This document shows positions 1,739 through 20,314 of a DNA stretch of 20,429 nt, in pieces. The notes beneath the pieces were generated by a model, which saw only the letters and a program-made list of their open reading frames with translations, did no database searches and was not told where the DNA came from. The position numbers and the translations under genes were made by a program. Position 1 is the stretch's first letter. Each line of letters opens with the position of its first letter. Source of the DNA: a virus; IMG/VR virus record IMGVR_UViG_3300001533_000271, positions 1-20,429 of that record. The stretch is one strand, 5' to 3'.

Positions 1739-1772
1739 AGATCGCGGGTGGGAAACTGCCCGCCGATCTTTT
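1739..1772 (+). terminator. Rho-independent terminator or attenuator after the CobS-like gene
   Basis: AGATCG (1739-1744) pairs with CGATCT (1764-1769), and CGGGT (1745-1749) pairs with GCCCG (1758-1762), closing with a T-G wobble. One C (1763) is bulged, the loop is 8 nt, and a TTTT run (1769-1772) follows. This is a good intrinsic terminator. Only 23 bases separate it from the next ATG at 1796, too few for a full sigma70 promoter, so the HD gene may depend on readthrough. Confidence 0.7.
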
Positions 1773-1795: not shown

Positions 1796-2734
1796 ATGAA
1801 CCGAGAAACAGCAAAGAAAAACAAAATCCCATCGACCACTGCATTCCAGAATGGGTTTACCCCTCTCCTGCATATTTGTAAGTCCCTCCACGCCCGCAAT
1901 GAGCCGGTATCTGTTTTAGCGTCTACCATCGCTTCTAAATGCCATGAAAATCAGTATCGCGACACCAAGGATGCAAACGATAAGTCAGTGGCATATTACT
2001 CTCACTGCGCAGAGGTTCGGGATCTCGCTACAACCGCTCTTGCAAGCCAGTTTCAGGATGACGAAACTGCCGCCCGACTGTTGAAATTAGAACTTGAGTA
2101 TGCCAAGCGTGTAGAACTTCGAGAGTCTGTCTCAGACCATAAGGGTCTGTGTCCGTCTTGTATATTCACGGGTGGCGGCATTCCATCTTCCGAAAACTCT
2201 GATTTGAACGCCGGTACAGGTAAGCCGGGTGCCGAACTGCTGTATCTCCGAGAACAGGTTTCTGCTGCCGCAATACTTCACGATACCGTCGAAGATACAT
2301 TTATGGAACTGCCCACACTGTCATATCTGCTGACACCCACGCCAAACCATATTCACCCATACGCTCTCAACCTAGTGTATCAACTCACGAACCTAACGGA
2401 GATGGGTAAGGGGTTTGAGGGTCGAGAAGTTCAGAACGCTATCGACTATTTCTACTACACCAACCTAACTCCGCTCGCATTGCTTATCAAGACCGCTGAT
2501 CGTCGCCACAATCTGGAATCGGCGCGATACGCTTGGAAGCATGAACGATGGGTCAACTATTTGACTAAGACGCGCCTGTTCCTCCGAGCAACGGATCTTT
2601 TGCTTTTGGACTATGAAGAATTTGGTTCCTCTATCGGTATCCCCTCACTGGTGAGGGAGCGTGTAAAGAACATGATCGAATTCAATCGAGATGAAATCAA
2701 AAAAATAGTTGGAGTGGAGAGTGATAATGAATAG
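1796..2734 (+). CDS. SpoT/MESH1-type HD hydrolase, probable small alarmone hydrolase
   Basis: The product has 312 residues from the ATG at 1796; an in-frame GTG at 1790 is less likely because GTAAG at 1786-1790 is spaced for the ATG. It carries the HD signature of the Rel/SpoT hydrolase domain: HENQYR (50-55), YYSH with H70, LHDTVEDT with H162/D163 and E167/D168, and IKTADRRHNL with D235 and N239. In Rel and SpoT the matching His, His-Asp, Glu-Asp and Asp/Asn residues bind manganese and remove the 3' pyrophosphate of (p)ppGpp. No synthetase, TGS or ACT domain is present, as in small alarmone hydrolases. Unusually, about 92 residues separate H70 from the HD pair, where Rel has roughly 24; the insert holds CPSC (119-122), a possible metal knuckle. 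The gene overlaps the next by 8 bases. Substrate is inference; another nucleotide phosphohydrolase is possible. Confidence 0.82.
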   Translation: MNRETAKKNKIPSTTAFQNGFTPLLHICKSLHARNEPVSVLASTIASKCHENQYRDTKDANDKSVAYYSHCAEVRDLATTALASQFQDDETAARLLKLELEYAKRVELRESVSDHKGLCPSCIFTGGGIPSSENSDLNAGTGKPGAELLYLREQVSAAAILHDTVEDTFMELPTLSYLLTPTPNHIHPYALNLVYQLTNLTEMGKGFEGREVQNAIDYFYYTNLTPLALLIKTADRRHNLESARYAWKHERWVNYLTKTRLFLRATDLLLLDYEEFGSSIGIPSLVRERVKNMIEFNRDEIKKIVGVESDNE

Positions 2735-3434
2735 ACCTGCGTGTGTTATTGATGTTGAAACTACCGGTCTGTGTCCTTTCATGGGATACGGTATGGTCCA
2801 GTTTGCCATGATCGCATTTGATTTGGCAGACCCGGATTTGAAGGTGCAGTGGTCTCTTGATATCAAGATCAACCCCGATACACTTGAAGATCTCCAAGTT
2901 TCTCAGGAAGCATTGAAGTTTTCAGGTAAGGTTTATGAGCAAGCCAAGGAGACTGGGTTTGACGCGAGTGCCGCCGCGATAAAAATTTGGGAAGCACTTT
3001 GCTCCGTTGCGCCATTCAAGATGATTCCGTTCGGACAGAATACAACCTTTGACCTCAACTTCACTAGATGCCATCTGATGAAGTATCTCCCGATTGACTA
3101 TCTGATTGATGGGGGATATAATCCATATGTTTCCACGATGCGAAACTATGAGACAGCGATTGTCGCATCCAAAAACTCGCCATGGAGTCCACAGGCTGAA
3201 CTGTTGACTAACTGGGACTTCCTCCCATGGTCCCGGCGATACTATGACCTGCAATCCATGGCTATTGGTATATGGCACAGTGATCCGAGCATGACATCGT
3301 TTAGCCTAAATAGTATCTCCAAGAAACTCAAGATCATCGTGGATGACCGCCCGGATGACCACGACGCTCTACATGACTGTAAACTGACACTGGCGAACTT
3401 GCGTCAGTTGAAGAAAGCGAAGATCATTGCCTAA
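2727..3434 (+). CDS. DnaQ-like DEDDh 3'-5' exonuclease (DexA-like)
   Basis: A 235-residue exonuclease of the DEDDh class. Exo I is VIDVETTG with D9 and E11. Exo II lies in GQNTTFDLNF with D109. Exo III is HDALHD with H212 and D217, the spacing typical of the His-type subgroup. Together these supply the four acidic metal ligands and the general base for stepwise 3'-5' cleavage of DNA or RNA. Length and arrangement are close to T4 DexA, but a ribonuclease role cannot be excluded. I chose ATG 2727 because GGAGTGGAG lies just upstream and because the product then begins directly before the first beta strand; it overlaps the HD gene's stop. It sits between the HD and kinase genes and contains an internal sigma70-type promoter. 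Confidence 0.85.
   Translation: MNRPACVIDVETTGLCPFMGYGMVQFAMIAFDLADPDLKVQWSLDIKINPDTLEDLQVSQEALKFSGKVYEQAKETGFDASAAAIKIWEALCSVAPFKMIPFGQNTTFDLNFTRCHLMKYLPIDYLIDGGYNPYVSTMRNYETAIVASKNSPWSPQAELLTNWDFLPWSRRYYDLQSMAIGIWHSDPSMTSFSLNSISKKLKIIVDDRPDDHDALHDCKLTLANLRQLKKAKIIA
3094..3122 (+). promoter_or_regulatory. Near-consensus sigma70 promoter inside the exonuclease gene
   Basis: TTGACT (3094-3099), a 17-base spacer, then TATAAT (3117-3122). One mismatch to consensus. Transcription would begin near 3129 and reach the kinase gene at 3427. Confidence 0.6.
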
Positions 3435-3960
3435 ACTCTACATTCATCGTGGATTACCCGGATCCGGAAAGTCAACTGCCGCTTCAAAGCGAGGGTGCTT
3501 TGTTCTTTCAGCAGTGGATATGTTCTGTATGCAAGACGGGAAGTATCAATACACAAACGAGTCTTGGTTGCCCGCACACGAACTCTGCTTTTCACTTGCA
3601 GTTCGCATCATGCAGGCACAGGCAGACCTTGCGTTCGCGGAATGCTTCTTGGACCAGCATGGAACCTTGTTTCCGTATCTCGGTCTGGCTATGAACTATG
3701 GTTACGAGATTCATGTCACAGATCATATCATCACTCCAGAAGAATCCATGGAACGAAACACTCATGAAGTTCCGGAAAAGATCATCTACGCGATGCATTC
3801 AAAGTTTCGCCCATGGGAAGTCTTGGCTCCACAGTGGCATTCATGGTACAAGTATATTCTATCAAACGGAACGCAGAAATTTGATGGACTGTTTTTGAAG
3901 ATTCTTTTAGATAGGATTGACACTCAAAACCGGGAACGGTTCGATATCCAACACGACTAA
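3427..3960 (+). CDS. P-loop kinase resembling the kinase half of T4 polynucleotide kinase
   Basis: 177 residues. Walker A is GLPGSGKST at 9-17, right after the first beta strand; VDMF with a candidate catalytic Asp near residue 31 follows. A lid-like stretch ERNTHEVPEKIIYAMHSKF resembles the RN...VP...YKSM pattern of the T4 Pnk kinase lid. This suggests ATP-dependent 5'-hydroxyl phosphorylation of a nucleic acid or nucleotide. The HAD phosphatase domain of T4 Pnk is absent. The reading frame begins at a TTG that overlaps the preceding TAA, with AAGAAAGCGAAG as ribosome site; no ATG is available before the P loop. Neighbouring exonuclease, HD hydrolase and metallophosphoesterase suggest end-processing or nucleotide metabolism. 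The exact substrate is unknown. Confidence 0.8.
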   Translation: MPKLYIHRGLPGSGKSTAASKRGCFVLSAVDMFCMQDGKYQYTNESWLPAHELCFSLAVRIMQAQADLAFAECFLDQHGTLFPYLGLAMNYGYEIHVTDHIITPEESMERNTHEVPEKIIYAMHSKFRPWEVLAPQWHSWYKYILSNGTQKFDGLFLKILLDRIDTQNRERFDIQHD

Positions 3961-3996
3961 CCTACATACCGCTAGACTACTCCATGGAGAAATAAC

Positions 3997-4140
3997 ATGA
4001 ATGGACAAGCAGGAAAAGGTGATACCTACCGCCCAATAGATCGTCAAAAATGGGATGAGAACTACGAAAGAATTTTTGGAAAGAAAGATGCAAAAGTTAC
4101 CCAAACTAACAAGTCAGGAAATAGCAAGACTTCGAAGTGA
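3997..4140 (+). CDS. Small conserved-type phage protein (47 aa)
   Basis: 47 residues beginning MNGQAGKGDTYRP, followed by WDENYERIFGKK. A very short protein with a GKGDxYRP start and a YxxIF core is common in phages of many families, but its role is not known to me. The ribosome site GGAGAAAT lies immediately upstream of ATG 3997. It is very basic and ends in a Lys/Ser/Asn-rich tail encoded in the same bases as the start of the next gene. Confidence 0.75.
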   Translation: MNGQAGKGDTYRPIDRQKWDENYERIFGKKDAKVTQTNKSGNSKTSK

Positions 4141-4234
4141 AGGTGTGAAACAACGCGCATCAACTTGGTCCAAGACCAAAAAATATGAATCCCGACAGTC
4201 AGCAAAGATCAAACTCCGTGGGGAAATTGAATGA
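4088..4234 (+). CDS. Small basic protein (48 aa) overlapping its neighbour
   Basis: 48 residues, strongly basic, including LTSQEIARLRSEGVKQRAS and a Lys/Arg-rich C-terminus. It starts at ATG 4088 with GGAAAG just upstream, inside the previous gene in another frame, so 53 bases are read twice. Its TGA overlaps the ATG of the next gene (ATGA), a typical coupling junction. A basic helix suggests nucleic acid binding, but this is inference and no family is recognised. Confidence 0.6.
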   Translation: MQKLPKLTSQEIARLRSEGVKQRASTWSKTKKYESRQSAKIKLRGEIE

Positions 4235-4434
4235 CAACTATTCTCGTCCGAAACACCCTTTCCGACTTGACACGGCGTGTTGAGCAGTGTATAATTGATC
4301 GACTAAAAGATCTTTCGGACAATGACATGGACCGTTTGGAGTCCATCCTAATTGATCCGGTCAACGACGCGCTCGATGATTTTGAAGATTTTGTAGATCA
4401 CCGAAGATCCCTTTGGAATGATGAAAATGATTGA
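4231..4434 (+). CDS. Small acidic helical protein of unknown function (67 aa)
   Basis: 67 residues, mostly helical and acidic, with repeated Leu/Ile/Asp heptad-like spacing and an Asp/Phe-rich C-terminal half. ATG 4231 overlaps the preceding stop and has GGGGAA seven bases upstream. No motif is recognised. Its coding sequence contains a full-consensus sigma70 promoter (4267-4295), which may constrain part of the protein; conversely, the promoter leaves some doubt that the ORF is a gene. Confidence 0.55.
   Translation: MTTILVRNTLSDLTRRVEQCIIDRLKDLSDNDMDRLESILIDPVNDALDDFEDFVDHRRSLWNDEND
4267..4295 (+). promoter_or_regulatory. Full-consensus sigma70 promoter inside the 67-aa gene
   Basis: TTGACA (4267-4272), exactly 17 bases, then TATAAT (4290-4295). 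Predicted start near 4302, about 125 bases before the metallophosphoesterase gene, which it probably serves. Confidence 0.75.
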
Positions 4435-5095
4435 AATGACGAAGCATCTCTACCTAATCGGTGATATTCACGGTGATGTCAAATCACTGGTCAGTTGCCT
4501 TGAATACATTGCTTACCGTAATGCCGATACACCCTCGACCATCCTCCAAGTTGGTGACTATGGCATGGGGTTTGATCCGGAGATTGACGAATTCCTGACA
4601 GAGGATATCCCGGCACTGGTCAAAGGTCCGAAGTTTCGAAACATTGAATACTCTTGGTTCCGTGGAAACCACGACGATCCTGTGGTGTCTAGTCAGACCT
4701 TTGGTAACATTGGCGACTTCGGATGCCACCCGTCATACCCCTTGTTCTTTGTCGGCGGTGCATACACACCCCCGTTCTACAGAGGTCGTGTGTTCGAAAA
4801 TGAGCAATTGACCGCCGAACAAATGGAAGCGTGTCTTGAACTCTACAAAGAGTTGAAGCCAGACTTGGTTGTAACCCACGACTGCCCAGAGTTTCTAGTG
4901 AATCGGTTCTATCCAAAGCAGAGCGATGGAAGGTATGCAAATCGAACCACGAAACTTTTGCAGGATATGTTTGAGTTTCATCAACCGAAGCATTGGTACT
5001 TCGGTCATCATCACAAAGCAGTCTCTTGGAATGTTCTAGGGACTCAGTTCCGTTGTGTGGCATCGAATGAAATAGTTGTCCATAACTCAGTTTGA
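4427..5095 (+). CDS. Calcineurin-like metallophosphoesterase
   Basis: About 222 residues with the full set of metallophosphoesterase motifs in order: GDIHG near the N-terminus, GDYG, RGNHDDP in the middle, VTHDCP, and GHHH near the C-terminus. These bind two metal ions and cleave phosphate esters. The family covers protein phosphatases, dinucleoside tetraphosphate hydrolases and nucleases, and the sequence alone does not decide between them; at this size with no extra domain a nucleotide or protein phosphatase is more likely than a Mre11-type nuclease. In-frame ATGs occur at 4418, 4421, 4427 and 4436; GGA at 4415-4417 is best spaced for 4427. It overlaps the previous gene slightly and closes the accessory cassette. 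Confidence 0.85.
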   Translation: MIEMTKHLYLIGDIHGDVKSLVSCLEYIAYRNADTPSTILQVGDYGMGFDPEIDEFLTEDIPALVKGPKFRNIEYSWFRGNHDDPVVSSQTFGNIGDFGCHPSYPLFFVGGAYTPPFYRGRVFENEQLTAEQMEACLELYKELKPDLVVTHDCPEFLVNRFYPKQSDGRYANRTTKLLQDMFEFHQPKHWYFGHHHKAVSWNVLGTQFRCVASNEIVVHNSV

Positions 5096-5105
5096 AAGGA
5101 TTGTA

Positions 5106-5477
5106 ATGTCTGAATCTAACCCCATTAGCGGTGTCCGTCTTTCCAACGGTGAAATGATCTTTGGTCGCGTCACCAAGACCGAAACCGGTCTCACTGTTTC
5201 GAACCCTGCTGGCATTGTCCAGACCCCACAGGGAGCCGGTCTGGTTCCTTGGTGTCCGTTCTTCGAATTCGACAGGGAAACCGGGTTTGAATTTGATGCT
5301 GAACAGGTTTCCTACCACTGTCCACTCAATGGTGAAACCCAGCGAGCATACCAGCGAAACATTCTGGGTCTGGATATCCCTGAACCCGAGAAGCCGTCGC
5401 TGGCAACCCCCGGTGAGATTGCCGAAGTCAGTGCTTCCGAAATGACCGGTGGTCCGAAGTTGCAACTAGCAGACTAA
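5106..5477 (+). CDS. Sm-like small phage protein
   Basis: 123 residues from ATG 5106, which has AAAGGATTG upstream; an in-frame ATG at 5076 lies inside the previous gene and lacks a ribosome site. The N-terminal SGVRLSNGEMIFGRV, then GLTVSNPAGIV, then VPWCPFFEFD and a terminal beta strand, fit the pattern of a small Sm-like beta barrel (a 'LxxGExIxGxV' strand followed by 'NP' and 'PW' strands) found in T4-like phages. The gene at 9083 has the same layout, so the two look like paralogues. The last 30 residues are a disordered Pro/Glu/Ser tail. RNA binding or host-complex binding is possible, but nothing here proves it. Confidence 0.72.
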   Translation: MSESNPISGVRLSNGEMIFGRVTKTETGLTVSNPAGIVQTPQGAGLVPWCPFFEFDRETGFEFDAEQVSYHCPLNGETQRAYQRNILGLDIPEPEKPSLATPGEIAEVSASEMTGGPKLQLAD

Positions 5478-6544: not shown

Positions 6545-6865
6545 TTGAGAGAATCCAGAACTTGTATCGGTCGCTACTGGGGAAACCCTATCAGCGTAGA
6601 ACAACTTTCATCCGGTAAGTGGGTTGCGTATTTGCACCACCCCAAACTCGGAACACTTGAAAGCGATCTGTTCAGCAAACCGCCGAAACTCTGGCAAGCA
6701 AAGTTCTCTTTTCGTGATGAAGTGAAATCTTTGCGCAAGAGAAACTACGAACGAAAGTTCGGCGAAGGAAGTTATGATGAAACAGAACAAAAGCGAAGAA
6801 TCGACTCCAAAGAACTACTGCAATGGGTGCGAAAGCCCGAGGGACCAATCTTCCGTATCGGTTGA
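6545..6865 (+). CDS. Hypothetical basic protein (106 aa), TTG start
   Basis: 106 residues, basic (many Lys and Arg) with a beta-rich first half (CIGRYWGNPISVEQLSSGKW) and a helical Arg/Lys/Glu-rich second half. No family recognised. An in-frame stop at 6524-6526 leaves the TTG at 6545 as the only usable start, with GAGAGAA just before it. Its 3' end overlaps the deaminase gene by about 90 bases in another frame. It sits between uvsY and the deaminase. Confidence 0.6.
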   Translation: MRESRTCIGRYWGNPISVEQLSSGKWVAYLHHPKLGTLESDLFSKPPKLWQAKFSFRDEVKSLRKRNYERKFGEGSYDETEQKRRIDSKELLQWVRKPEGPIFRIG

Positions 6866-7526
6866 GGAATTCACTCGGTTTGTAGATCACCAATCAAGGT
6901 GGTTCCTAAGCAACATGCAGTGTGAAAGCCCTGTCAACTTCTGGCTCAATGTCAGCAAAGCGTTGATCGACGCTTATGACTACGGTCATGAACACAGCAC
7001 GGACAAAAGCACCAAACTGGGTGCAACTATCGTCTCAAGTTTGAAGCAGGACCACCAAGATTTTCGACCGCATTACTTTGGAGCAAATCGAGTCTCCGAA
7101 GAACTACAGAATTGGGAAAAGGTGGGACGAATCGGCGATCTTGATTCTAGACCAAACAAGTATTACTACACTGAGCATGCGGAGCGTGATGCTCTGGCAA
7201 CTCTCAATAGGGCAACGGTAAACCGTGATTCCACTTGGACGATGGTTTGCCCATGGTACGCTTGCGCTGATTGCGCCAGAGCCATTGTGAACTCGAAAGT
7301 GAACATTGTGATTGGTCACCGATCAATGTTGAATCACTTTCTGAACAGTGTAGACGAGCGGGCAAGATCCCAGTGGATGGATAGCATCTATGCTGGGTTC
7401 AAGATCCTAGAAGCGGGTGGGGTCAGACACGCCTATCTGGACACCCCTCTTATCAAATTCACCCAACAGGGTTTGCAAATTGTCAACCGAACTGTAACGA
7501 TTTCTGGTAAGGAATATATTGTCTAG
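6777..7526 (+). CDS. dCMP deaminase-like zinc-dependent deaminase
   Basis: 249 residues. The zinc site is HAERDAL with H134 and catalytic E136, and CPWYACADC with C163 and C166. This matches the cytidine/deoxycytidylate deaminase superfamily (HAE plus PCxxC), although the usual Pro before the first Cys is replaced: here it reads YACADC. dCMP deaminase makes dUMP for dTTP synthesis, a common T4-like function. I chose ATG 6777 (the preceding ATG 6774 is also in frame) because AAGGA at 6765-6769 is seven bases away. The N-terminal 45 residues are an extension with NYCNGC; an ATG at 6915 would remove it. Overlaps uvsW by 8 bases. dCMP as substrate is inferred from the family. Confidence 0.8.
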   Translation: MKQNKSEESTPKNYCNGCESPRDQSSVSVEEFTRFVDHQSRWFLSNMQCESPVNFWLNVSKALIDAYDYGHEHSTDKSTKLGATIVSSLKQDHQDFRPHYFGANRVSEELQNWEKVGRIGDLDSRPNKYYYTEHAERDALATLNRATVNRDSTWTMVCPWYACADCARAIVNSKVNIVIGHRSMLNHFLNSVDERARSQWMDSIYAGFKILEAGGVRHAYLDTPLIKFTQQGLQIVNRTVTISGKEYIV

Positions 7527-9120
7527 TTCTACAATCTGCCTATATACAGATATGGGCAAGATTGAAATTTACCAACTTGATGCTGCTCAAATCCGCGTTG
7601 CGTGTGACTCAGAATCCACGATGCGTGAACTCACCGACTATTTTACTTTCGACTCGCCGAACAAACAATGGTCCCCCGCGTACAAATCCCGTAAGTGGGA
7701 TGGTAAGATTCGCCTATTGAGTCAGAAGACCGGGCAGACCCTATCGGGTCTGGTCGGTCATGTCATGCACTTTGCAGGTCAGTCAGGTGACTCGATAAAG
7801 GCGATTGATTTTTTGGGCGGTGGTGTTGTTGGGTTCAATGATGAGAACGCTGCGGATTTCATGCAGGGGCTTCACCTGCGATCCAATGGAAAAGAAATCA
7901 CATCACACCCCCACCAGATCCAAGGATTCGGTCACGCCATTCGCACTGGTCGATCAATTTTGCTGTCACCGACATCATCTGGTAAGTCCGTCATCGCTTA
8001 CGCGATGGCAAGATACTATCAGCAACAAATCTTCACAGACAAGGCAAACAAGATTCTCATCATGGTCCCAACTGTTCAGTTGGTTGATCAGTTGTATTCT
8101 GACTTTGCTGATTACTCATCGGCTATCAAATGGAATGTTGAGGACCACTGTCATAAGATTTATGAAGGGCAGTTGAACACCAGCGAAAAGCAGATCTATA
8201 TTTCAACTTGGCAGTCGATCTACAAACTTCCGAAGAAATACTTCGAACAGTTTGGAGTTGTCATTGGAGACGAATGCCACAGATACGAAGCCCAGTCTGC
8301 TAAGAGAATCATGACTTCATGTATCCATGCTTATCGCCGACATGGTATGACGGGTACACTTCGGGATCTTCAAGAGTCGAGTATCCATCGTCTTGTCCTT
8401 GAGGGTCTATATGGTCCGGTCAAACAGGTTATCACAACCAAAGAAATGATCGACAAGAAAATCTCATCTGGGATTCAAATCAACTGTCTGAGACTGTCTT
8501 ACCCGGAACATGACCGCAAAGTTGTGTGTGGCATGAGGTATCCGGATGAAATGGACTTTATCTGCGCACACAACCCGCGTAGTGAGTTTGTGACAGACCT
8601 TGCATGCAAACTCAGGGGTAACACCCTCATGCTCTTTCAGTATATCGACAAGCATGGAAAGACGCTGAAAGAACTCATGGAATCCAAATTGGCTCATACC
8701 GGGCGGTCTGTCTACTATGTCGATGGTAGTGTCCCGAAAGACACCAGAGAAGAAATTCGATCACTGGTTGAAAAAGAAGACGATGCAGTTATCATTGCAT
8801 CGTATGGAACATTCTCTACCGGTATCAACATTCGGCGATTGCATAATATCATCATGGCATCGCCTACAAAAGCCCCGGTGACTGTCAAGCAGTCCATCGG
8901 TCGAGGTCTGCGTAAAGCAGAAGATAAAGAGATCGTTACAGTCTATGATATTGCTGACGATCTATCCTACAAGATCAGGAGGAATTTCGCCCTATCGCAC
9001 TTCCGTAAACGGGTGGAAATCTACATTAGCGAGAGTCACCCGTATCGAGTCATACCCATTGACCTAACACAGGGGACTCCCAATGCAATCACTAGGAATT
9101 CAAGTGGTAAAGATGAGTAG
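7519..9120 (+). CDS. uvsW: UvsW DNA/RNA helicase (superfamily 2)
   Basis: 533 residues. The N-terminal part (ELTDYFTF, KWDGKIRLLS) matches the T4 UvsW DNA-binding domain. Walker A PTSSGKS has its Lys at 156; DECH at 251-254 is motif II; GTLRD is motif III; SYGTFSTGINI and QSIGRGLRK are motifs V and VI. In T4 UvsW unwinds branched DNA and R-loops and shifts origin-driven to recombination-driven replication. The TTG at 7519 has AAGGA at 7509-7513; however, ATG 7552 gives MGKIEIYQ, which aligns with the T4 start, and TATATA ends five bases before it. The true start is therefore open by 11 codons. It overlaps the following gene by 38 bases. Confidence 0.93.
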   Translation: MSSSTICLYTDMGKIEIYQLDAAQIRVACDSESTMRELTDYFTFDSPNKQWSPAYKSRKWDGKIRLLSQKTGQTLSGLVGHVMHFAGQSGDSIKAIDFLGGGVVGFNDENAADFMQGLHLRSNGKEITSHPHQIQGFGHAIRTGRSILLSPTSSGKSVIAYAMARYYQQQIFTDKANKILIMVPTVQLVDQLYSDFADYSSAIKWNVEDHCHKIYEGQLNTSEKQIYISTWQSIYKLPKKYFEQFGVVIGDECHRYEAQSAKRIMTSCIHAYRRHGMTGTLRDLQESSIHRLVLEGLYGPVKQVITTKEMIDKKISSGIQINCLRLSYPEHDRKVVCGMRYPDEMDFICAHNPRSEFVTDLACKLRGNTLMLFQYIDKHGKTLKELMESKLAHTGRSVYYVDGSVPKDTREEIRSLVEKEDDAVIIASYGTFSTGINIRRLHNIIMASPTKAPVTVKQSIGRGLRKAEDKEIVTVYDIADDLSYKIRRNFALSHFRKRVEIYISESHPYRVIPIDLTQGTPNAITRNSSGKDE

Positions 9121-9751
9121 TGGTGAAAACATCATTTCATATGTCGAGACCGTTACCGGTAATCCGCAACTCCTCAAGTTCTATTTTCCAATGGTTCTCG
9201 TTCTAGAGAATCAAGGTAAGGATCACCAGTATCAAATTCGATACCGGTCTTGGCTTCTGTTCAGTGAAGACAAAACTGTGTGTGAGGTGGACCGAAAACA
9301 GGTCTTGACCCTATCCGATCCGAATCCCGATATTGCCTTTGAGTATGATGAAATGGTTTCCAAAATCGAAAAGGAAACTGGGGTTTCAATGAATGACCAA
9401 TTGACAGAGGAGGACGAACTTCTCATGGATATTGAAGACCTTTGTTACGAAGTGGATATGGAAAAAATTCTAAATTCTAAGTGGGGTGACCCGAAAATGC
9501 AAAACCGTGGAACCACCATGGATGGAATTTCTACCCCAAGTCCCACGGAAATCCGAAATGTAGTTGACTTTTTGTTGGATTGTGGTATAATTAGCGAAAT
9601 GAGGAAAGGTTGTGATATGGGTGAAAATCATACACAGGATCCAAACGATCACAACTGGGGTCACGACCCCGGAGACGAGGATCAACTGGGTAACGACACA
9701 GATACTATGAAAAAGAAGAAGTGGAATCCACATGATAGATGGTCAGAATGA
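9083..9751 (+). CDS. Sm-like phage protein with acidic/His-rich tail
   Basis: 222 residues. The first 90 follow the same pattern as the protein at 5106: IQVVKMSSGENIISYV, then NPQLL, a YRSWLLFSED strand and a DRKQVLTLSDPNPDIAFEY segment, i.e. a small Sm-like barrel of T4-like phages. The rest has helices (EKETGVSMNDQLTEEDELL) and a 50-residue tail rich in Asp, His, Asn, Gly and Lys. GGGGA six bases before ATG 9083 serves as ribosome site. The start lies inside uvsW and the end overlaps gene 55 by 20 bases. A promoter at 9564-9591 could also produce the last 50 residues alone from ATG 9599. Function unknown. Confidence 0.72.
   Translation: MQSLGIQVVKMSSGENIISYVETVTGNPQLLKFYFPMVLVLENQGKDHQYQIRYRSWLLFSEDKTVCEVDRKQVLTLSDPNPDIAFEYDEMVSKIEKETGVSMNDQLTEEDELLMDIEDLCYEVDMEKILNSKWGDPKMQNRGTTMDGISTPSPTEIRNVVDFLLDCGIISEMRKGCDMGENHTQDPNDHNWGHDPGDEDQLGNDTDTMKKKKWNPHDRWSE
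9564..9591 (+). promoter_or_regulatory. Sigma70 extended -10 promoter upstream of gene 55
   Basis: TTGACT (9564-9569), 16 bases, TATAAT (9586-9591), with TGG just before the -10 (TGnTATAAT, extended -10). Predicted start near 9598. Gene 55 begins at 9732, so this is its likely promoter, and ATG 9599 would be read as a leaderless start. Confidence 0.7.
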
Positions 9752-14225: not shown

Positions 14226-15572
14226 TTAGGCAAGCAGGTTAGCGACATGGACATAGCGGTAATACTGGTTGATGTTCGCAGTCATATTCTGTGCGTCGGG
14301 GGTGTTACTACCATTGACGACGAACGGGTTCGCGACAACGCCGTAGCGAGTCTTGAAGCCGATCTTCGGCTGGAAGGTATCTTCACCAACTGCCTGTACC
14401 ATCTGGAGCGGAACATACGGGCAGTAGAACAGACCAGCATCCATCGCGTTAGGACCCTTGTAGCCAGCAACGAAGTATTCGTTGTTTGCTGAGGCAGAGT
14501 GGTAAGGGTCAATGAAAACCTTGATTCGACCGTTGATGGTACCAGCAAAGGTGTTACCGGTATCGTCAACTTCAAGGTTCGACTGAAGCGCAGGAGCGTA
14601 GTCAAGAACACCAGCCATTGCGAGGGCGGCAGCAACATCACTCGAAGTGATGATGAAGTTACCCTTGCCACGGCGAGTTTCCTTGGCAATCGCGTTGCAC
14701 TCACGCTCGATCTGGAACAAGAGACCCTTGAATCGCTCAACCGACCAGCGACCGTCAGAGTCAACTTGCAGGTCGAATGCACCCGCAGTCGTGGTCTGCT
14801 GCGCACCAGTCTTAGCGACCTTGTAGATGAGACGGATGATTTCTCGGTTGATTTCCGCAAGGATTTCAGTCGAGAGCATGTTGGCGAGTTCGGTCTGGGC
14901 ATCGAGACCGTGGAGAGCCTTGAGGTCTTGCTCAAGTTCCATGGTGTATTCAGCCTTGAGACCACGGGTCTTTGCTTCAACCGAAGTCTTGTCGATGTTG
15001 ATCGACATTTCGTTGAATGCTTCATTATTGGCAGAACCAAGACGCTCACCAATCGCAGTATCGAGACCACGACCGATGATTGCGTTAGTGGTACCGAGGT
15101 CTGAACGGGATGCACCGCTCACACCGAACGAGAAGTCTTGGGTTCCAACCGAAGAAGTCTGTCCAAGAGCCGAAGTACCAGAGAACGCGGATGCTGGTTC
15201 AGTGAGACCAAGAGCCTCATTTTCCTGTGCCGCTTCGACACTTCCACCGTTCTTACCGTATGCTGCTCGGAGAGCGAATACGAGACCGGTAGGACCGCTC
15301 ATTGGCTGAACACCACAGATATCGTAAGCGATCAACTGTGGGGCTGCACGGCGAACGAGACTGATGAGAATTGGATCCCACTTGTCAACATTGCCGGTCT
15401 TGTTATGATGATCGCTAGACTCACGCAGGAACTTCTTCTGGTTCTCTAGAAGAACAGAAGTCACTCGCTTGCGGTAAGAGTCCTTGATCTGCGGATATTT
15501 CTTACTTTCAAGCAGAGGCTTCCACTGCTTCGAAAGAGATTCGTACATATTCATTTGATCATTGAAGTCCAT
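14226..15572 (-). CDS. 23: Major capsid protein gp23
   Basis: 448 residues from the ATG at 15572, with GGGAGAATCC upstream; an in-frame ATG at 15620 would put that ribosome site inside the protein. T4 gp23 has 521. The match is clear: LVRRAAPQLIAYDICGVQPM, PTGLVFALRAAYGK, MSINIDKTSVEAKTRGLKAEYTMELEQDLKALHGLDAQTELANMLSTEI, and AGYKGPNAMDAGLFYCPYVPL. It builds the head shell as hexamers. T4 gp23 loses its N-terminus to gp21 at (L/I)xE; here FLRE at 48-51 is the best candidate. It has its own late-type promoter and ends at the shared palindromic terminator. Confidence 0.95.
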   Translation of the reverse strand: MDFNDQMNMYESLSKQWKPLLESKKYPQIKDSYRKRVTSVLLENQKKFLRESSDHHNKTGNVDKWDPILISLVRRAAPQLIAYDICGVQPMSGPTGLVFALRAAYGKNGGSVEAAQENEALGLTEPASAFSGTSALGQTSSVGTQDFSFGVSGASRSDLGTTNAIIGRGLDTAIGERLGSANNEAFNEMSINIDKTSVEAKTRGLKAEYTMELEQDLKALHGLDAQTELANMLSTEILAEINREIIRLIYKVAKTGAQQTTTAGAFDLQVDSDGRWSVERFKGLLFQIERECNAIAKETRRGKGNFIITSSDVAAALAMAGVLDYAPALQSNLEVDDTGNTFAGTINGRIKVFIDPYHSASANNEYFVAGYKGPNAMDAGLFYCPYVPLQMVQAVGEDTFQPKIGFKTRYGVVANPFVVNGSNTPDAQNMTANINQYYRYVHVANLLA

Positions 15573-15593
15573 TGTGGATTCTCCCTTTGTGAA

Positions 15594-15625
15594 CACTGGA
15601 TCGGGGTAACATTTCCCCAACAGTG
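15594..15625 (-). other. Leader hairpin of the gp23 transcript
   Basis: On the - strand CACTG (15625-15621) pairs with CAGTG (15598-15594), and GGGG (15618-15615) with CCCC (15606-15603); the internal loop is 2 and 4 nt, the end loop 8. The late promoter would start transcription near 15621, so only the inner stem is certain to be in the RNA. May shield the 5' end. Confidence 0.4.
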
Positions 15626-15626
15626 G

Positions 15627-15633
15627 TATTTAG
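15627..15633 (-). promoter_or_regulatory. gp55-type late promoter of gene 23
   Basis: CTAAATA on the - strand, 55 bases before the gp23 ATG, in the short gap after the gp22 stop. The same heptamer, preceded by ATTT or AATT, stands upstream of gp22 and gp67. Confidence 0.72.
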
Positions 15634-15651
15634 TAAATTAGAACTTTCAGA

Positions 15652-17178
15652 TTAGAAATCACGGATGACGCGGTTTGCGCCTTCAATTAGAGACTTGGTG
15701 AGCGGATCCATTCCGGCGTATTCGTCGTCGATGAGTTCCTTGACCTCACTGAGGTTTCGGGACTTACCATTGACAATCGTTTCGGTAGTATCCTTAGTTG
15801 GCTTGTTCGAACGCGAAGTCTTACGATCTTCGCTGTAGGTCTCAACGAGGGTCTTGATCTTCGAAGAATACTTCTTGGGATCAGAAGTTTCGATACCTTC
15901 CGCAAGACGGGCAATCTTTGCACGACCGACCGAAGAAAGGTTTGAAGTCAGACGATCAAACTCACGCTCGCAGTTTTGCTCATTGAGTTTGTTGCGTAGT
16001 TCAACATTCTTAGCGATCTGCTCACTGAGTTCAGTCTTGAGGATTTCGGTTTCCTTGTGCATCTCATCGAGAACATTGAACTTACCCGTAGGCACTTCAA
16101 TGTGGTGTTCTTCGAAGACACGGAAGATGTTCTCTTGGAGAGATTCAAGAAGTTCACCACGGAGACCGCTATCAATTGCCGTTTGGTTATCTTCAACCCA
16201 CTCATTGATGGTCGCCGAGAGGAATCGGTCAATACCATCAACTAGGTTTTCAACCTGCTTGTTTGCGCGGTTATATGCCTTGGTCTTTGCAACGGCATAC
16301 TTGGTCTTGTAATGCTCAGTTAGAGAGTGAGCAAGACCGTGTACACGCTCACGAACAGCGGCTTCGAAGACGGTTCGGGTATGAGCCTTGAATTCCTCGG
16401 TGAGGTTCTTCTGACTCTTAGAGAAGATAGCGTTGTAATGCTCGTCCATCTTCTCTTTGTTTTCCTCGTCGTCGTCCATTTCCTTTAGACGCTTCTCAAC
16501 CATATCGTCAGTTTCGTCGTCATAGTCGTCATAGTCGTCGGATTCAGACATTTCGTCATCTTCGTCTTCATCGTCAGACTCAGACATTTCTTCGTCATCA
16601 TAATCCTCATCATCGGACTCAGACATTTCGTCGTCTTCGTCTTCGTAGTCATCATCCGACTCAGACATTTCTTTGTCATCATCTTCGTCTTCATCGTCAG
16701 ACTCAGACATTTCGTCGTCTTCGTCTTCGTCATCCATTTCGCGGACCATTCTCATGATACGCTCGGAGACGGTTTCAGAATCGTCATCTTCGTCATCTTC
16801 GTCATCCGACTCGATAACATCTTCGTCTTCATCGTCCTCGTCATCAGACTCGATAAGACCCTCATCGTTCGGGTTATTGTCGAGTTCATCATACTCGGGC
16901 TTGACTTCGGATTTCGATTCTTCCATTTCTTCCTCGTCATCATCCTCATAATCTGACTCTTGCATACTGCGAGTATCAGAAGTGTTTGAGTCTTGACGAT
17001 TTTCAGAGTCACCAGAGGTTTCCTCGGTGCCATCACGCTCCTGCTCTGCGGAAGCATCTACGGCATCTGCGTCTTCTTGGTCACTCATTTCATCTTTGGT
17101 ATTCTTGCCTTGAATTGAATCGGCAGCACCTTCCATCAGTCTGCGTGCTTCTTCAATTGCGTTTAATTCAGATGCCAT
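15652..17178 (-). CDS. 22: Prohead scaffold protein gp22 with long acidic repeat domain
   Basis: 508 residues against about 269 in T4 gp22. The last 260 match T4: LTEEFKAHTRTVFEAAVRERV (T4 TFGTVFEATVKQHAVK), INEWVEDNQTAIDSGLRGELLESL (T4 KEWLAENKLAVDKGIKAELFESM), HHIEVP and the following coiled coil. It forms the inner core on which gp23 assembles. Residues 28-245 are an added, extremely acidic domain with five MSESDD repeats and two IESDDEDDED repeats. (L/I)xE sites for gp21 occur at about 110 and 233. ATG 17178 has AGGAG upstream, with a late-type promoter 42 bases before it. Confidence 0.92.
   Translation of the reverse strand: MASELNAIEEARRLMEGAADSIQGKNTKDEMSDQEDADAVDASAEQERDGTEETSGDSENRQDSNTSDTRSMQESDYEDDDEEEMEESKSEVKPEYDELDNNPNDEGLIESDDEDDEDEDVIESDDEDDEDDDSETVSERIMRMVREMDDEDEDDEMSESDDEDEDDDKEMSESDDDYEDEDDEMSESDDEDYDDEEMSESDDEDEDDEMSESDDYDDYDDETDDMVEKRLKEMDDDEENKEKMDEHYNAIFSKSQKNLTEEFKAHTRTVFEAAVRERVHGLAHSLTEHYKTKYAVAKTKAYNRANKQVENLVDGIDRFLSATINEWVEDNQTAIDSGLRGELLESLQENIFRVFEEHHIEVPTGKFNVLDEMHKETEILKTELSEQIAKNVELRNKLNEQNCEREFDRLTSNLSSVGRAKIARLAEGIETSDPKKYSSKIKTLVETYSEDRKTSRSNKPTKDTTETIVNGKSRNLSEVKELIDDEYAGMDPLTKSLIEGANRVIRDF
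16504..16854 (-). repeat. Acidic 12-14-residue repeats in gp22
   Basis: In the protein, MSESDD recurs at 157, 171, 185, 198 and 210 with 12-14-residue periods filled with Asp, Glu and a few Tyr. Two further units (IESDDEDDED) start at 109 and 122. In DNA the units are 36-42 bases, each containing a near-identical 15-base core ending in CAGACAT as read on the + strand. A coding repeat that probably changes in number by slippage or recombination. Confidence 0.85.
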
Positions 17179-17219
17179 GTGGAATATCTCCTGTAAATGG
17201 TCTTGGTCAATCTGTTGTT

Positions 17220-17226
17220 TATTTAG
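17220..17226 (-). promoter_or_regulatory. gp55-type late promoter of gene 22
   Basis: CTAAATA on the - strand, preceded by ATTTC, 42 bases before the gp22 ATG and between gp21 and gp22. Confidence 0.7.
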
Positions 17227-17252
17227 GAAATCTGTGGTTTCAGAGTGAAACT

Positions 17253-17903
17253 TTACCCTCTGAGATCATTCATGAAATCTTCGAAGACCTTGGCTTCCGC
17301 CATTCGAAGTTTGCGACTGGGGGTGTTCTTAATGACTTTTCGTGCAATCTCTGCCTTGCGAACCCAGTTGCTGTTGCGGTATACCCACACAACACCTTCC
17401 ATGATTCCATTGACGAATGCACTCGGAGCCGATGGATCAGCAACGATGTCAGCAGCCGTGACAAGACGAAAGTCTTCCTGAACATAACTCACCGCGTTTC
17501 GTTCTTGGACTGAACCAACGCCGCGTGAAGACACGCCTAGATTGAACCCACCCTTGAGCAAACCTTTGACAGTTTGCCCTTTGGGGGTATCCAGAATCAA
17601 AGCCTTACCAATGTAATTCTTTCCCTCTTTCTTGAGGGATACGATTTTATGGCTGACTCGTTCTAGGTGGATCTTCGGTCCTTCCGGGTGTTCCAGTTCA
17701 CCGTAGCCGCGATTGGTGTCGATAGATTCTTTGATGTATCGAGCGGTTTCCCGGTCCAAAACTGGCATGGGGTATACACGGTTGTTACCGTTTCGAATAT
17801 CCCCTTGAAGGAATATTCCTTCGATGTAATAAGATTTCTCTTTACCGTTGCTTTCGGTAAGAACAGAGATCTCAGGATTGTATTCAGTAATAAGTCGAGC
17901 CAT
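17253..17903 (-). CDS. 21: Prohead protease gp21
   Basis: 216 residues; T4 gp21 has about 212. The catalytic His lies in ELEHP (H72), the Ser in GVSSRG (S125 or S126), and an acidic DFRLVTAADIV.DPSAP segment follows, as in T4 (ELNHP, GVSSRGLGS, DAVWGPSAP). This U35-type serine protease cuts capsid and core proteins at (L/I)xE and then itself. Its ATG overlaps the gp67 stop by one base (TAATG), so it has no promoter of its own and is read with gp67. Confidence 0.94.
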   Translation of the reverse strand: MARLITEYNPEISVLTESNGKEKSYYIEGIFLQGDIRNGNNRVYPMPVLDRETARYIKESIDTNRGYGELEHPEGPKIHLERVSHKIVSLKKEGKNYIGKALILDTPKGQTVKGLLKGGFNLGVSSRGVGSVQERNAVSYVQEDFRLVTAADIVADPSAPSAFVNGIMEGVVWVYRNSNWVRKAEIARKVIKNTPSRKLRMAEAKVFEDFMNDLRG

Positions 17904-18067
17904 TACTTGTCCTTTTTGAACATACCCTTTGCAACTTCAATCTTTCGATCTTCCAATGCAATGTGGGCTTTGGTGTTCATTGCAGTCTGAAAGTGTTTCT
18001 TCGCAGACCGAAAGTCTCCGTTTTGATATGAGCGGAGCATTTTACGAATTGAAAGTCGGCTGTCCAT
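17903..18067 (-). CDS. 67: Prohead core protein gp67-like (54 aa, no acidic tail)
   Basis: 54 residues from the ATG at 18067, with GGAGAAG upstream. MLRSYQNGDFRSAKKHFQTAMNTKAHIALEDRKIEVAKGMF resembles the helical start of T4 gp67 (NDLVAARKLFAEAMAARTIDLIKEEKIAIARNFL). As I recall, T4 gp67 continues in an acidic Asp/Glu tail; here the protein stops right after the helix. A late-type promoter is 62 bases upstream. It overlaps gp21 by one base. The match is short, so the gp67 name is likely but not certain. Confidence 0.75.
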   Translation of the reverse strand: MDSRLSIRKMLRSYQNGDFRSAKKHFQTAMNTKAHIALEDRKIEVAKGMFKKDK

Positions 18068-18128
18068 TGTTATTTCTTCTCCGAAACATGGTTGTGTAGA
18101 TACCAGTTTAGTGACTGTTCTACAAGAG

Positions 18129-18135
18129 TATTTAG
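18129..18135 (-). promoter_or_regulatory. gp55-type late promoter of gp67/gp21
   Basis: CTAAATA on the - strand, preceded by AATTCG, in the 94-base gap between the 146-aa gene and gp67. Confidence 0.68.
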
Positions 18136-18161
18136 CGAATTCCCATCGTTGAACTCGGATA

Positions 18162-18602
18162 TTAGTCGGCGTTTGTTTGGATCGGATAGGGATTCTGAGA
18201 ACAAAAGTAGTGCCGGATCGCCTCGAAAACTGAGTTCCAATTTTCAACAAGAATTCCATCCGCATCGTCGGCAAGTGACTTCACGATATCACCACTACCA
18301 CTCTGTGAAACAATGGTCGCCGTGTTCCCTGAAACCGAATCTTTCTTGACCAATCCAAGATCTTTGGCAGTGTTTACAAACAACTTGGCTTTGGATGGGT
18401 TGGCAAACTTGACGCGAATTGTTTCTTCAGAGAGCGATTCGCTTTTCTCCTTGCGGGAGTTATACATGTCCCATGCTCTACCATAGAGAATTGAAACACC
18501 CTCGTCTTCACCGTAGCGGTCAGTAAACCGCTTCTTGTTTTTCTTGATCCAAGTCTCAATAGACTTGTCCGGTGGCGCGGCTTCGGATAGATTTAGTCTC
18601 AT
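18162..18602 (-). CDS. Phage structural-region protein of unknown function (146 aa)
   Basis: 146 residues. The N-terminus PDKSIETWIKKNKKRFTDRYG...ILYGRAWDMYN is a helical motif widespread in tailed-phage structural regions. The C-terminal part, with TIRVKFANPSKAKLFVNTAKDLGLV and repeating strands, suggests a small alpha/beta fold. T4 has gp67 directly after gp20 and gp68 before gp21; this gene occupies the place between gp20 and gp67 but does not look like gp68. Its ATG overlaps the gp20 stop (ATGA). A core or packaging role is inference from position. Confidence 0.65.
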   Translation of the reverse strand: MRLNLSEAAPPDKSIETWIKKNKKRFTDRYGEDEGVSILYGRAWDMYNSRKEKSESLSEETIRVKFANPSKAKLFVNTAKDLGLVKKDSVSGNTATIVSQSGSGDIVKSLADDADGILVENWNSVFEAIRHYFCSQNPYPIQTNAD

Positions 18603-20314
18603 TGATCACCCCTCTGCGAATCTTTTTTGTCTTCGTCATCCGGAAGTTGTTGCTCCGGTGGAAGACCCGGTTCTCTGGAAGATGGTGTGGGTGGTTCATC
18701 ATACCCAAACCCACCCTCGTCATCATCGGATTGATCGGATCCACCACCCGGTTCATCTCCAAACCCACCGCCACCAAACCCACCGCCACCAAAACCATCA
18801 TTGTCTGCATCCGCGTATTGGGAATTGTCTTTCTCTTTCTCAATCTGCTTGTCGATTTCGTCGATTTCTTCTTCGGTTTGGCGAAGAATATCGAGCCTAA
18901 TCTGTCGGTGTGAGAAATACTTGCCGACATATGGATCGAGACTTTGAAGTAAGTTCATTCTCTCGGTCATCAATTCCGCTTCTTTGAGTTCGGTGAAATG
19001 GCTGTCACGGCGGAAGTCAAAGAAAATGTCGTTGGAGATTTCTTGCCATTCATCTAGGGTCATAATACCCTTGAGAATAACCTGAGTTTTGAGAAGATCA
19101 TAGAAAATAGCAGCAAAGCGGGTTCGCAGTCGATCAACAAACTTCGAAAACTTCAATTCGTCTCTGGTCATTTCTGACGCTCGACCCAGACTAAACCCGG
19201 TTTCGGGTTCAAGTCGGGTGATCGGAATATAGAGCGATTGATAGAGTTTCTTTTGGAAGTATCGAACATCTTCGATTTCTCCCAAGTTTTGACCGCCCTG
19301 CAAAGTCTCAATTTGGGTTCCCTGAGACCCTTCACGACGCGGTAGCCAGTAGTCTTCGGTCATTGCCAAGTGGCGGTTGTTGTCTCTCAGTTCACCAGTG
19401 TTTGCATCGTAAACAATCTTGTTGCGATACTGAGTCATGAGTTTGCGGACATACTGCTCTGCTCGATTTTTAGGAAGCGAACCGGTGTCAATGTAAAACG
19501 CTCGGCGTTCAGGTGCGCGGGCAAGTCGGTAAATCACAACAGCATGCTCAAGCATTCTCAACTGGTTTGCTGGTCGGATTGCTTTGTAAAGATACCCTAA
19601 CACCATGTTTTTCTGTGGGTCATATAGACCGGATGGGGCATAAGCAATAGCATCAGGGAAAACAGAAACCTTGTTTCCGCCATATCCGTATCCGCCCCAC
19701 GACGAATCGTCAAGGTAAGTGTAGTATTCTTGGTAATCCTTGATAATCGTGTTTCCAGACTCATCCGTTTCTTCGACGATTTCTCGGATCTTCTGCATTC
19801 GGGTCGGATCAATCTGACGAAGTTCCTGAATCCCATTTTTTGGTTTGTTGGTGTCTACGATCTTATGGAAGTAAATCTTCCCGTCGATATACCATCTTCG
19901 AAACAAGTCATAACATTCAGTGTTGAAGTCTAAAAGTTCAAGAATCTCATCAAAGGATTCTTGCATCTTCTCTTTGGTCGCCTCATCAACTTCAGTTTTA
20001 CCCAAGTCCAATTCGATGATTTGCTCTTGGTCACCCGTCACGATACTGGCAGTTACAATGTCCTCAATCGCCATATCGACTTCTGGGATACTAGAAATCT
20101 CTCGATACTTCTGGATGAGTTCGACTTCACTTTGGAATACAGCATCAAGGTCGATTGCCTGACCGAAAAATCCACCACTGGCTTCGATGGTATAAGAGCC
20201 GTCTATATCCATGGGTCTCGCAAAAGACCCAAGTTTTCTCATGTTCGAAGTTTGCTTCTTAGTGGCTTTGAACTGCCACCCTGCAAACTGGTATTTTTTT
20301 GTCATTCCTGCCAT
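18599..20314 (-). CDS. 20: Portal protein gp20
   Basis: 571 residues; T4 gp20 has about 524. The T4 pattern is clear: SIPEVDMAIEDIVTASIV, LFRRWYIDGKIYFHKIVD, QELRQIDPTRMQKIRE, LYKAIRPANQLRMLEHAVVIYRLARAPERRAFYIDTGSLPK, RYFQKKLYQSLYIPITRLE and FSKFVDRLRTRFAAIF. It forms the dodecameric ring at the capsid vertex, starts head assembly and carries DNA packaging. The last 75 residues are extra: a Gly-rich stretch with GFGGGGFGGGGFG, then an Asp/Pro/Glu-rich tail. ATG 20314 has AGGA upstream. Confidence 0.95.
   Translation of the reverse strand: MAGMTKKYQFAGWQFKATKKQTSNMRKLGSFARPMDIDGSYTIEASGGFFGQAIDLDAVFQSEVELIQKYREISSIPEVDMAIEDIVTASIVTGDQEQIIELDLGKTEVDEATKEKMQESFDEILELLDFNTECYDLFRRWYIDGKIYFHKIVDTNKPKNGIQELRQIDPTRMQKIREIVEETDESGNTIIKDYQEYYTYLDDSSWGGYGYGGNKVSVFPDAIAYAPSGLYDPQKNMVLGYLYKAIRPANQLRMLEHAVVIYRLARAPERRAFYIDTGSLPKNRAEQYVRKLMTQYRNKIVYDANTGELRDNNRHLAMTEDYWLPRREGSQGTQIETLQGGQNLGEIEDVRYFQKKLYQSLYIPITRLEPETGFSLGRASEMTRDELKFSKFVDRLRTRFAAIFYDLLKTQVILKGIMTLDEWQEISNDIFFDFRRDSHFTELKEAELMTERMNLLQSLDPYVGKYFSHRQIRLDILRQTEEEIDEIDKQIEKEKDNSQYADADNDGFGGGGFGGGGFGDEPGGGSDQSDDDEGGFGYDEPPTPSSREPGLPPEQQLPDDEDKKDSQRGDQ

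Follow-up and report, generated by a model that had tools for sequence, protein, structure and literature searches.

We examined a 20,429-nucleotide stretch of DNA (IMG/VR record IMGVR_UViG_3300001533_000271, positions 1 to 20,429; hereafter the window), a 20.4-kb fragment of a T4-like phage that carries, on one strand, genes for an HD-superfamily protein, a DEDDh 3'-5' exonuclease, a P-loop kinase resembling 5'-polynucleotide kinases (PNK) and a metallophosphoesterase (MPE). In our judgement there is an even chance that these four genes are a lineage-specific accessory set for processing RNA ends, most likely those of tRNA damaged by host defence. The proposal is built on the family membership of the four proteins and on the finding that, in other phages, members of the HD and kinase families are linked with RNA repair genes, which suggest that the enzymes may act jointly on RNA ends. 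The order of the four genes is not that of a conserved system or cassette.

The HD and kinase families are linked with RNA repair genes in other phages

The kinase family adjoins an RNA ligase and a phosphoesterase in phages of Vibrio, Salmonella and Pseudomonas. The annotated isolate Salmonella phage UAB_1 carries phosphoesterase, RNA ligase and kinase genes, and Vibrio phage Brizo carries RNA ligase, kinase and phosphoesterase. Both Pyxpy02 and PHB09 have HD, phosphoesterase, RNA ligase and kinase genes, the PHB09 kinase being its 'hypothetical' protein 005 (phrog_2071, 4e-45). HD, phosphoesterase and RNA ligase were found in COT4, where the kinase lay outside the comparison; RcXuper has an RNA ligase beside the kinase, and BDU-MI-1 an HD gene beside RtcB.

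Linkage was counted in separately fetched IMG/VR loci (79 for the kinase family and 93 for the HD family), with 80 UvsW loci as the control; the families were chosen after the seed loci had been seen, and the seeds of the ligase and MPE profiles came from loci initially spotted beside a kinase or an HD gene. An MPE of the phrog_547 type was present at 24 of the 79 kinase loci, a ligase at 40 and either of them at 46, against none of the 80 control loci (Fisher p = 8e-19, a value that treats loci as independent and is too strong). The HD loci included 39 with an MPE and 22 with a ligase, and 41 of the 93 had an MPE, or a match to either of the two main ligase profiles, within 6 kb (control, 0/80). 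Whenever the MPE gene was within 2 kb, it shared the strand of its neighbor (38/38 near HD, 19/19 near the kinase). No equivalent count of HD/ligase/MPE linkage was found in the literature searched.

HD, phosphoesterase and kinase genes also co-occur in several loci. HD and kinase are linked to each other in L171, L191 and L195 of the sample and in the phages PHB09 and Pyxpy02. Positions 2279-8078 of L171, a 173-kb viral contig, hold on a single strand a TROVE/Ro60-like gene, HD, MPE, kinase, two small open reading frames (ORFs) and an Rnl2-type ligase (the names Ro60 and Rnl2 are readings of the sequence), and we regard this locus as a clean test case for the RNA repair reading. As a separate observation, L126 (4588-8387) brings together within 4 kb an MPE, a nucleotidyltransferase-like gene with a CCA-adding-type motif, a short kinase-like ORF and an HD gene.

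Family assignment of the four proteins

The HD protein matched Pfam HD weakly (PF01966, E-value 0.0026) and phrog_990 at 3.8e-13; its sequence matches in the PDB were of the RelA/SpoT type only, and the NCBIfam model spoT_relA gave a weak match (1.3e-5), far under its full-length cut-off. The protein contains an HDTVEDT motif, and residues H50, H70, H162-D163, E166-D167, D235 and N239 were invariant across 14 phage sequences. It has the HD fold with HDxxED and the other HD-motif residues that define RelA/SpoT homologues and small alarmone hydrolases (SAHs). The first motif of Rel-type enzymes, RKxxGEPYxxH, is not preserved: the window protein has QYRDTKDANDKSVAYYSH, in which the Arg and the His are retained and the remainder is replaced or interrupted. 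Approximately 70 residues (roughly 83-152) that its relatives do not have are added between the first two HD motifs, and these are partly disordered in an AlphaFold2 model made with the 14 phage sequences (predicted local distance difference test, pLDDT, 78). The top Foldseek matches of this model were to MESH1 (3nqw, E-value 3.7e-4, template-modeling score by target 0.66, then 3nr1 and 5vxa, human MESH1 among them), followed by the bacterial SAH 6yvc; the matches also included P. aeruginosa SAH and SpoT. By anatomy, as read from sequence and model, the protein belongs, as a divergent member, to the small alarmone hydrolases of the MESH1/SAH/Rel type, an assignment that does not imply a substrate. 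Since the residues that follow the first-motif Arg differ and the insertion is present, alarmone recognition is uncertain. A tblastn search of phage records with the window protein gave no direct match, and 316 phage records contain a relative of the HD homologue of Stenotrophomonas phage DLP_6.

The exonuclease scored above the Pfam cut-off for RNase_T (PF00929, 1.1e-6), matched phrog_192 and has the residues that define DEDDh enzymes, DxE in motif I (DVETTG) and H-x4-D in motif III (HDALHD). PADLOC assigned it to generic DEDDh models only and gave no match for the HD protein, the kinase or the MPE; tblastn with the exonuclease against phage records returned none. The kinase matched AAA_33 under Pfam's cut-off (2.6e-5) and phrog_2071 at 8.9e-14. 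When a profile of seven family members was used, T4 PNK was the best match (1ly1, 5.1e-9), with weaker ones to Pnkp1 and the Pnkp kinase domain, and the PDB entries recovered were 1ly1, 1ltq, 4xrp and 4gp7. The window kinase carries a GLPGSGKST P-loop and D31, has no phosphatase domain and, at the NTFTT motif, departs from the rest of its family. Judged by these matches, it belongs to the T4-polynucleotide-kinase family.

The MPE matched Metallophos (3.1e-10) and phrog_1649, and its motifs (GDIHGD/GD/GNHD/THD/GHHH) are all intact. The RNA lariat debranching enzyme Dbr1 was its closest relative both in a profile search (2.4e-7) and in a fold search with the model (pLDDT 87), where Dbr1 came first (E-value 1e-9) and LpxH and Rv0805 next; the core of the protein is thus similar to Dbr1 in sequence and in fold. 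Dbr1 has GCxH as its first metal motif and possesses a C-terminal domain. In contrast, the first metal motif of the window MPE is GDxH (GDIHGD), without the Dbr1 cysteine, and the protein does not have the C-terminal extension (225 residues versus about 350). An iterative MPE search was discarded because it drifted into gp47, as expected of this superfamily.

The four-gene order is restricted to one phage species

In the 80 loci of relatives selected by UvsW, the HD, exonuclease, kinase and phrog_1649 families were all absent around UvsW; many of these loci are short, and the absence covers only the DNA around that gene. Family profiles applied to 21 records detected single members in some of them, scattered: relatives of the exonuclease, kinase and MPE lie approximately 19-39 kb apart in RcXuper, and a long distance separates HD from MPE in phiM12 and DLP_6. 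The complete set in its order was seen in this phage species only, in two contigs. Three further candidates were set aside: a DLP_6 protein adjoining an MPE proved to be a different P-loop plus nucleotidyltransferase protein, not the kinase; a P-loop protein of Pelagibacter phage HTVC008M was weakly similar; and an exonuclease located 2 kb from an MPE in genome G011 showed weak similarity and was not used as support.

The first-pass annotation of the window had proposed the four genes as an unreported system and suggested searching other phages for the four families in this order. The search did not recover a conserved cassette, and single members scattered in relatives, the outcome that the annotation itself had named as refuting, are what was found. 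The general kind is also not new, since phage RNA repair by a kinase and ligases, in some cases with HD-like or calcineurin-like phosphatases, has already been described (PMC7824862, PMC12846349). What is new is the gene combination, the presence in it of a Dbr1-like enzyme, and the counting of HD/ligase/MPE linkage.

Organization of the gene set and its surroundings

The four enzyme genes of the first-pass annotation are real (Table 1), and their families are borne out by Pfam and PHROG profiles. It had described them as standing in a row with the first three coupled. The coupling is confirmed by overlaps of 8 bp between HD and exonuclease (ATGAATAG at 2727) and between exonuclease and kinase (TTGCCTAA at 3427), but the MPE is uncoupled: 457 bp, with three small overlapping ORFs, lie between it and the kinase upstream. 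Between the set and the preceding CobS/MoxR ATPase gene stands a terminator-like hairpin. The two internal promoter sites that had been predicted also stand, as sigma-70-type consensus matches and not as mapped promoters: TTGAC-N18-TATAAT occurs four times in the window, always on the plus strand (3094, 4267, 6022 and 11315), where 0.31 occurrences are expected and 0 of 100 shuffles reached four. A fifth plus-strand site, at 9564, has a 16-nt spacing. The five sites are mostly intragenic, upstream of the kinase, MPE, UvsY, gp55 and gp46. The T4-type late promoter TATAAATA is rarer in the window than expected by chance. The set is probably transcribed from upstream and again from internal putative promoters.

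Table 1. Features of the four-enzyme region (window coordinates)
Feature	Position	Strand	Remarks
Terminator-like hairpin	1744-1763	+	8 pairs, 6 GC, then CGATCTTTTC
HD-superfamily protein	1796-2734	+	312 aa
DEDDh 3'-5' exonuclease	2727-3434	+	235 aa
Sigma-70-type promoter-like site	3094-3122	+	TTGACT-17-TATAAT, within exonuclease gene
5'-polynucleotide-kinase-like P-loop kinase	3427-3960	+	177 aa, TTG start
Small ORF	3997-4140	+	47 aa, no family
Small ORF	4055-4234	+	59 aa, no family; overlaps the 3997-4140 ORF in a different frame
Small ORF	4231-4434	+	67 aa, no convincing family
Sigma-70 promoter-like site, perfect	4267-4295	+	TTGACA-17-TATAAT, upstream of MPE
Metallophosphoesterase (MPE)	4418-5095	+	225 aa

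A second contig (53,891 bp) matches the window at 99.7% identity across the shared part and has an identical gene order; as two assemblies agree, the arrangement is not an assembly chimera. The four enzyme genes show zero substitutions between the contigs in the shared stretch, and polymorphism is too scarce for a selection test. All the sigma-70-type sites are retained in the second contig, which has one extra at position 30812 of its reverse complement. At the 3' end of gp47 (window ~11519) it has 22 additional bases, which alter the C-terminus or the stop between the two strains.

On the plus strand, the CobS/MoxR ATPase gene is followed by the four-enzyme set, a phrog_527 gene, the tail tube gene, UvsY, a deaminase-like gene, UvsW, gp55, gp47 and gp46; the minus strand carries gp23, gp22, gp21 and gp20 (gp22 was named by position relative to DLP_6 and gp20 by homology). 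By major capsid protein, the closest isolates, DLP_6 and HTVC008M, are approximately 56% identical, and the closest UvsW is 47% identical, so the lineage is isolated. Rfam and tRNA scans of the window gave no matches. The head genes gp23-gp20 (14226-20314) are on the strand opposite to the recombination block; those of DLP_6 and HTVC008M share the strand of the block and lie immediately upstream, which indicates that the order was rearranged in the window lineage. The gp22-like scaffold gene (15652-17178) contains long acidic D/E-rich repeats (DDEDEDDEMSESD units). The deaminase-like protein (6774-7526) weakly matched NF041025, an anti-phage dCTP deaminase model (E-value 0.0043, far under the cut-off), and relatives of its gene are placed between UvsY and UvsW in L029 and L032. 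Matches to phrog_527 at 5106-5477 and 9083-9751 flank the UvsY/UvsW block and may be paralogues.

Proposed function and alternatives

If the set processes RNA ends, the HD protein would remove pyrophosphate or phosphate from nucleotides or tRNA 3' ends, comparable to what is reported for PaSpo of phage SSU5; the exonuclease would trim 3' ends or clear fragments; the kinase would add a 5' phosphate to cleaved RNA; the Dbr1-like phosphoesterase would open or remove 2' or 2',3'-cyclic phosphate linkages; and the repair would be completed by a ligase, a gene for which was not found in the 53.9 kb known. The first-pass annotation had suggested repair of RNA or DNA ends or erasure of alarm nucleotides, and this is partly supported: an alarmone-hydrolase relative, a T4 PNK-like kinase and the ligase/MPE linkage of both families point to the right neighborhood.

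Several results weigh against RNA-end processing by this set. Counted by lineage, the linkage shrinks: with greedy clustering at 60%, a partner within 2 kb was found in 14 of 29 kinase clusters and 5 of 28 HD clusters, fewer independent lineages than loci, and under single linkage the HD loci with a partner at that distance collapse to one group. The closest relatives of the window kinase (L146-L149, 38-41% identical) had no detected partner, and the MPE that is usually linked belongs to phrog_547, whose profile misses the window MPE. Searches with two ligase profiles and with single Rnl2-type and RtcB sequences detected no RNA ligase in the window or in the 53.9-kb contig, the genome being incomplete; on this incomplete genome, the set does not have the composition of a phage RNA repair cluster, a kinase and a phosphoesterase with an RNA ligase nearby. 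The phrog_1649 and exonuclease families occurred in no HD or kinase locus examined. This last result, the restriction of the order to one species, the dispersal of the relatives in RcXuper, phiM12 and DLP_6 and the abundance of such enzymes in phage genomes all favor an accidental neighborhood, in which four independently acquired nucleotide enzymes in a variable region perform separate jobs with no joint function. We consider this alternative possible, although on the unlikely side, because partners of the same types recur beside the HD and kinase families, which are also linked to each other in several phages, and because the first three genes overlap translationally.

It is also conceivable, but improbable, that the set acts against signaling, with the HD protein destroying (p)ppGpp/(p)ppApp, the MPE cleaving cyclic or 2'-5' oligonucleotide alarms, the exonuclease clearing linear products and the kinase being incidental. 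The HD protein is related to alarmone hydrolases, a group whose phage members have been suggested to modify stress signaling in the host (PMC12846349), and the nearest solved relatives of the MPE (Dbr1) act on 2'-5' linkages, Rv0805 being among the next fold matches. However, such a role explains neither the kinase nor the frequent linkage of the HD and kinase families with RNA ligases, and it depends on the alarmone recognition that the altered first motif and the insertion make uncertain. A function in DNA metabolism, in which exonuclease, kinase and MPE would process phage DNA ends beside the downstream recombination genes (UvsY, UvsW, gp46/47), seems very improbable to us. The set does adjoin the T4-like recombination block, phrog_192 carries the annotation of DNA polymerase exonuclease subunit, and DLP_6 has an annotated exonuclease directly upstream of its tail tube/UvsY/UvsW block; nevertheless, the kinase and the MPE are closest to RNA-acting enzymes, the kinase family is found with RNA ligases, and the HD protein is left without a role.

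We tentatively extend the RNA-end reading to a wider proposal, which we hold to be rather doubtful: many phage 'alarmone hydrolases' may in fact heal RNA ends in concert with a kinase, a phosphoesterase and a ligase, for instance by taking off the tRNA 3' pyrophosphate made by toxSAS, and the window version, which includes an exonuclease and a Dbr1-like 2'-phosphodiesterase, might mend both CCA-end modification and anticodon cleavage. If true, the alarmone hydrolases of phages, commonly taken for modulators of the stringent response, would be tied to RNA repair, with HD enzymes undoing toxSAS damage to tRNA and the adjacent kinase and phosphoesterase undoing anticodon cleavage, and a Dbr1-like phosphodiesterase would be placed in a phage repair context. 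The window is a single lineage-specific example, and the broader finding that HD and kinase families are linked with ligases is of more use.

Comparison with known systems

A survey of jumbo phages suggested that calcineurin-like and HD-like phosphatases take part in RNA repair (PMC7824862). In the Pseudomonas phage Adele (Pakpunavirus), a phosphatase-less kinase and two ligases were proposed for tRNA repair, and its genome also encodes an alarmone hydrolase, SAH (PMC12846349). The Vandenendeviridae-type RNA repair cluster (Otagovirus PHB09, COT4 and phiK7A1; Pakpunavirus Adele) resembles the window set in combining a relative of HD alarmone hydrolases, an MPE and a phosphatase-less PNK-like kinase within a single neighborhood (PMC12846349). 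It differs in having an RNA ligase and a phrog_547 MPE, whereas the window has a phrog_1649 Dbr1-like MPE and an added DEDDh exonuclease, and a ligase was not found.

The 5'-kinase family is likewise shared with the tRNA repair of T4, by PseT (Pnk) and RNA ligase, and with bacterial Pnkp, and the kinase together with an MPE recalls the Pnkp pairing; in the window, however, these are separate proteins, with no haloacid dehalogenase (HAD) phosphatase domain and no ligase in the known 53.9 kb. Finally, PaSpo, the alarmone hydrolase of Salmonella phage SSU5, was reported to remove a tRNA modification installed by toxSAS (PMC11559606). The window HD protein is only ~25% identical to phage small alarmone hydrolases such as PaSpo and the Adele SAH and differs from them by its insertion of roughly 70 residues, but it has in common with them the HD fold, HDxxED and related motif residues, and a phage origin.

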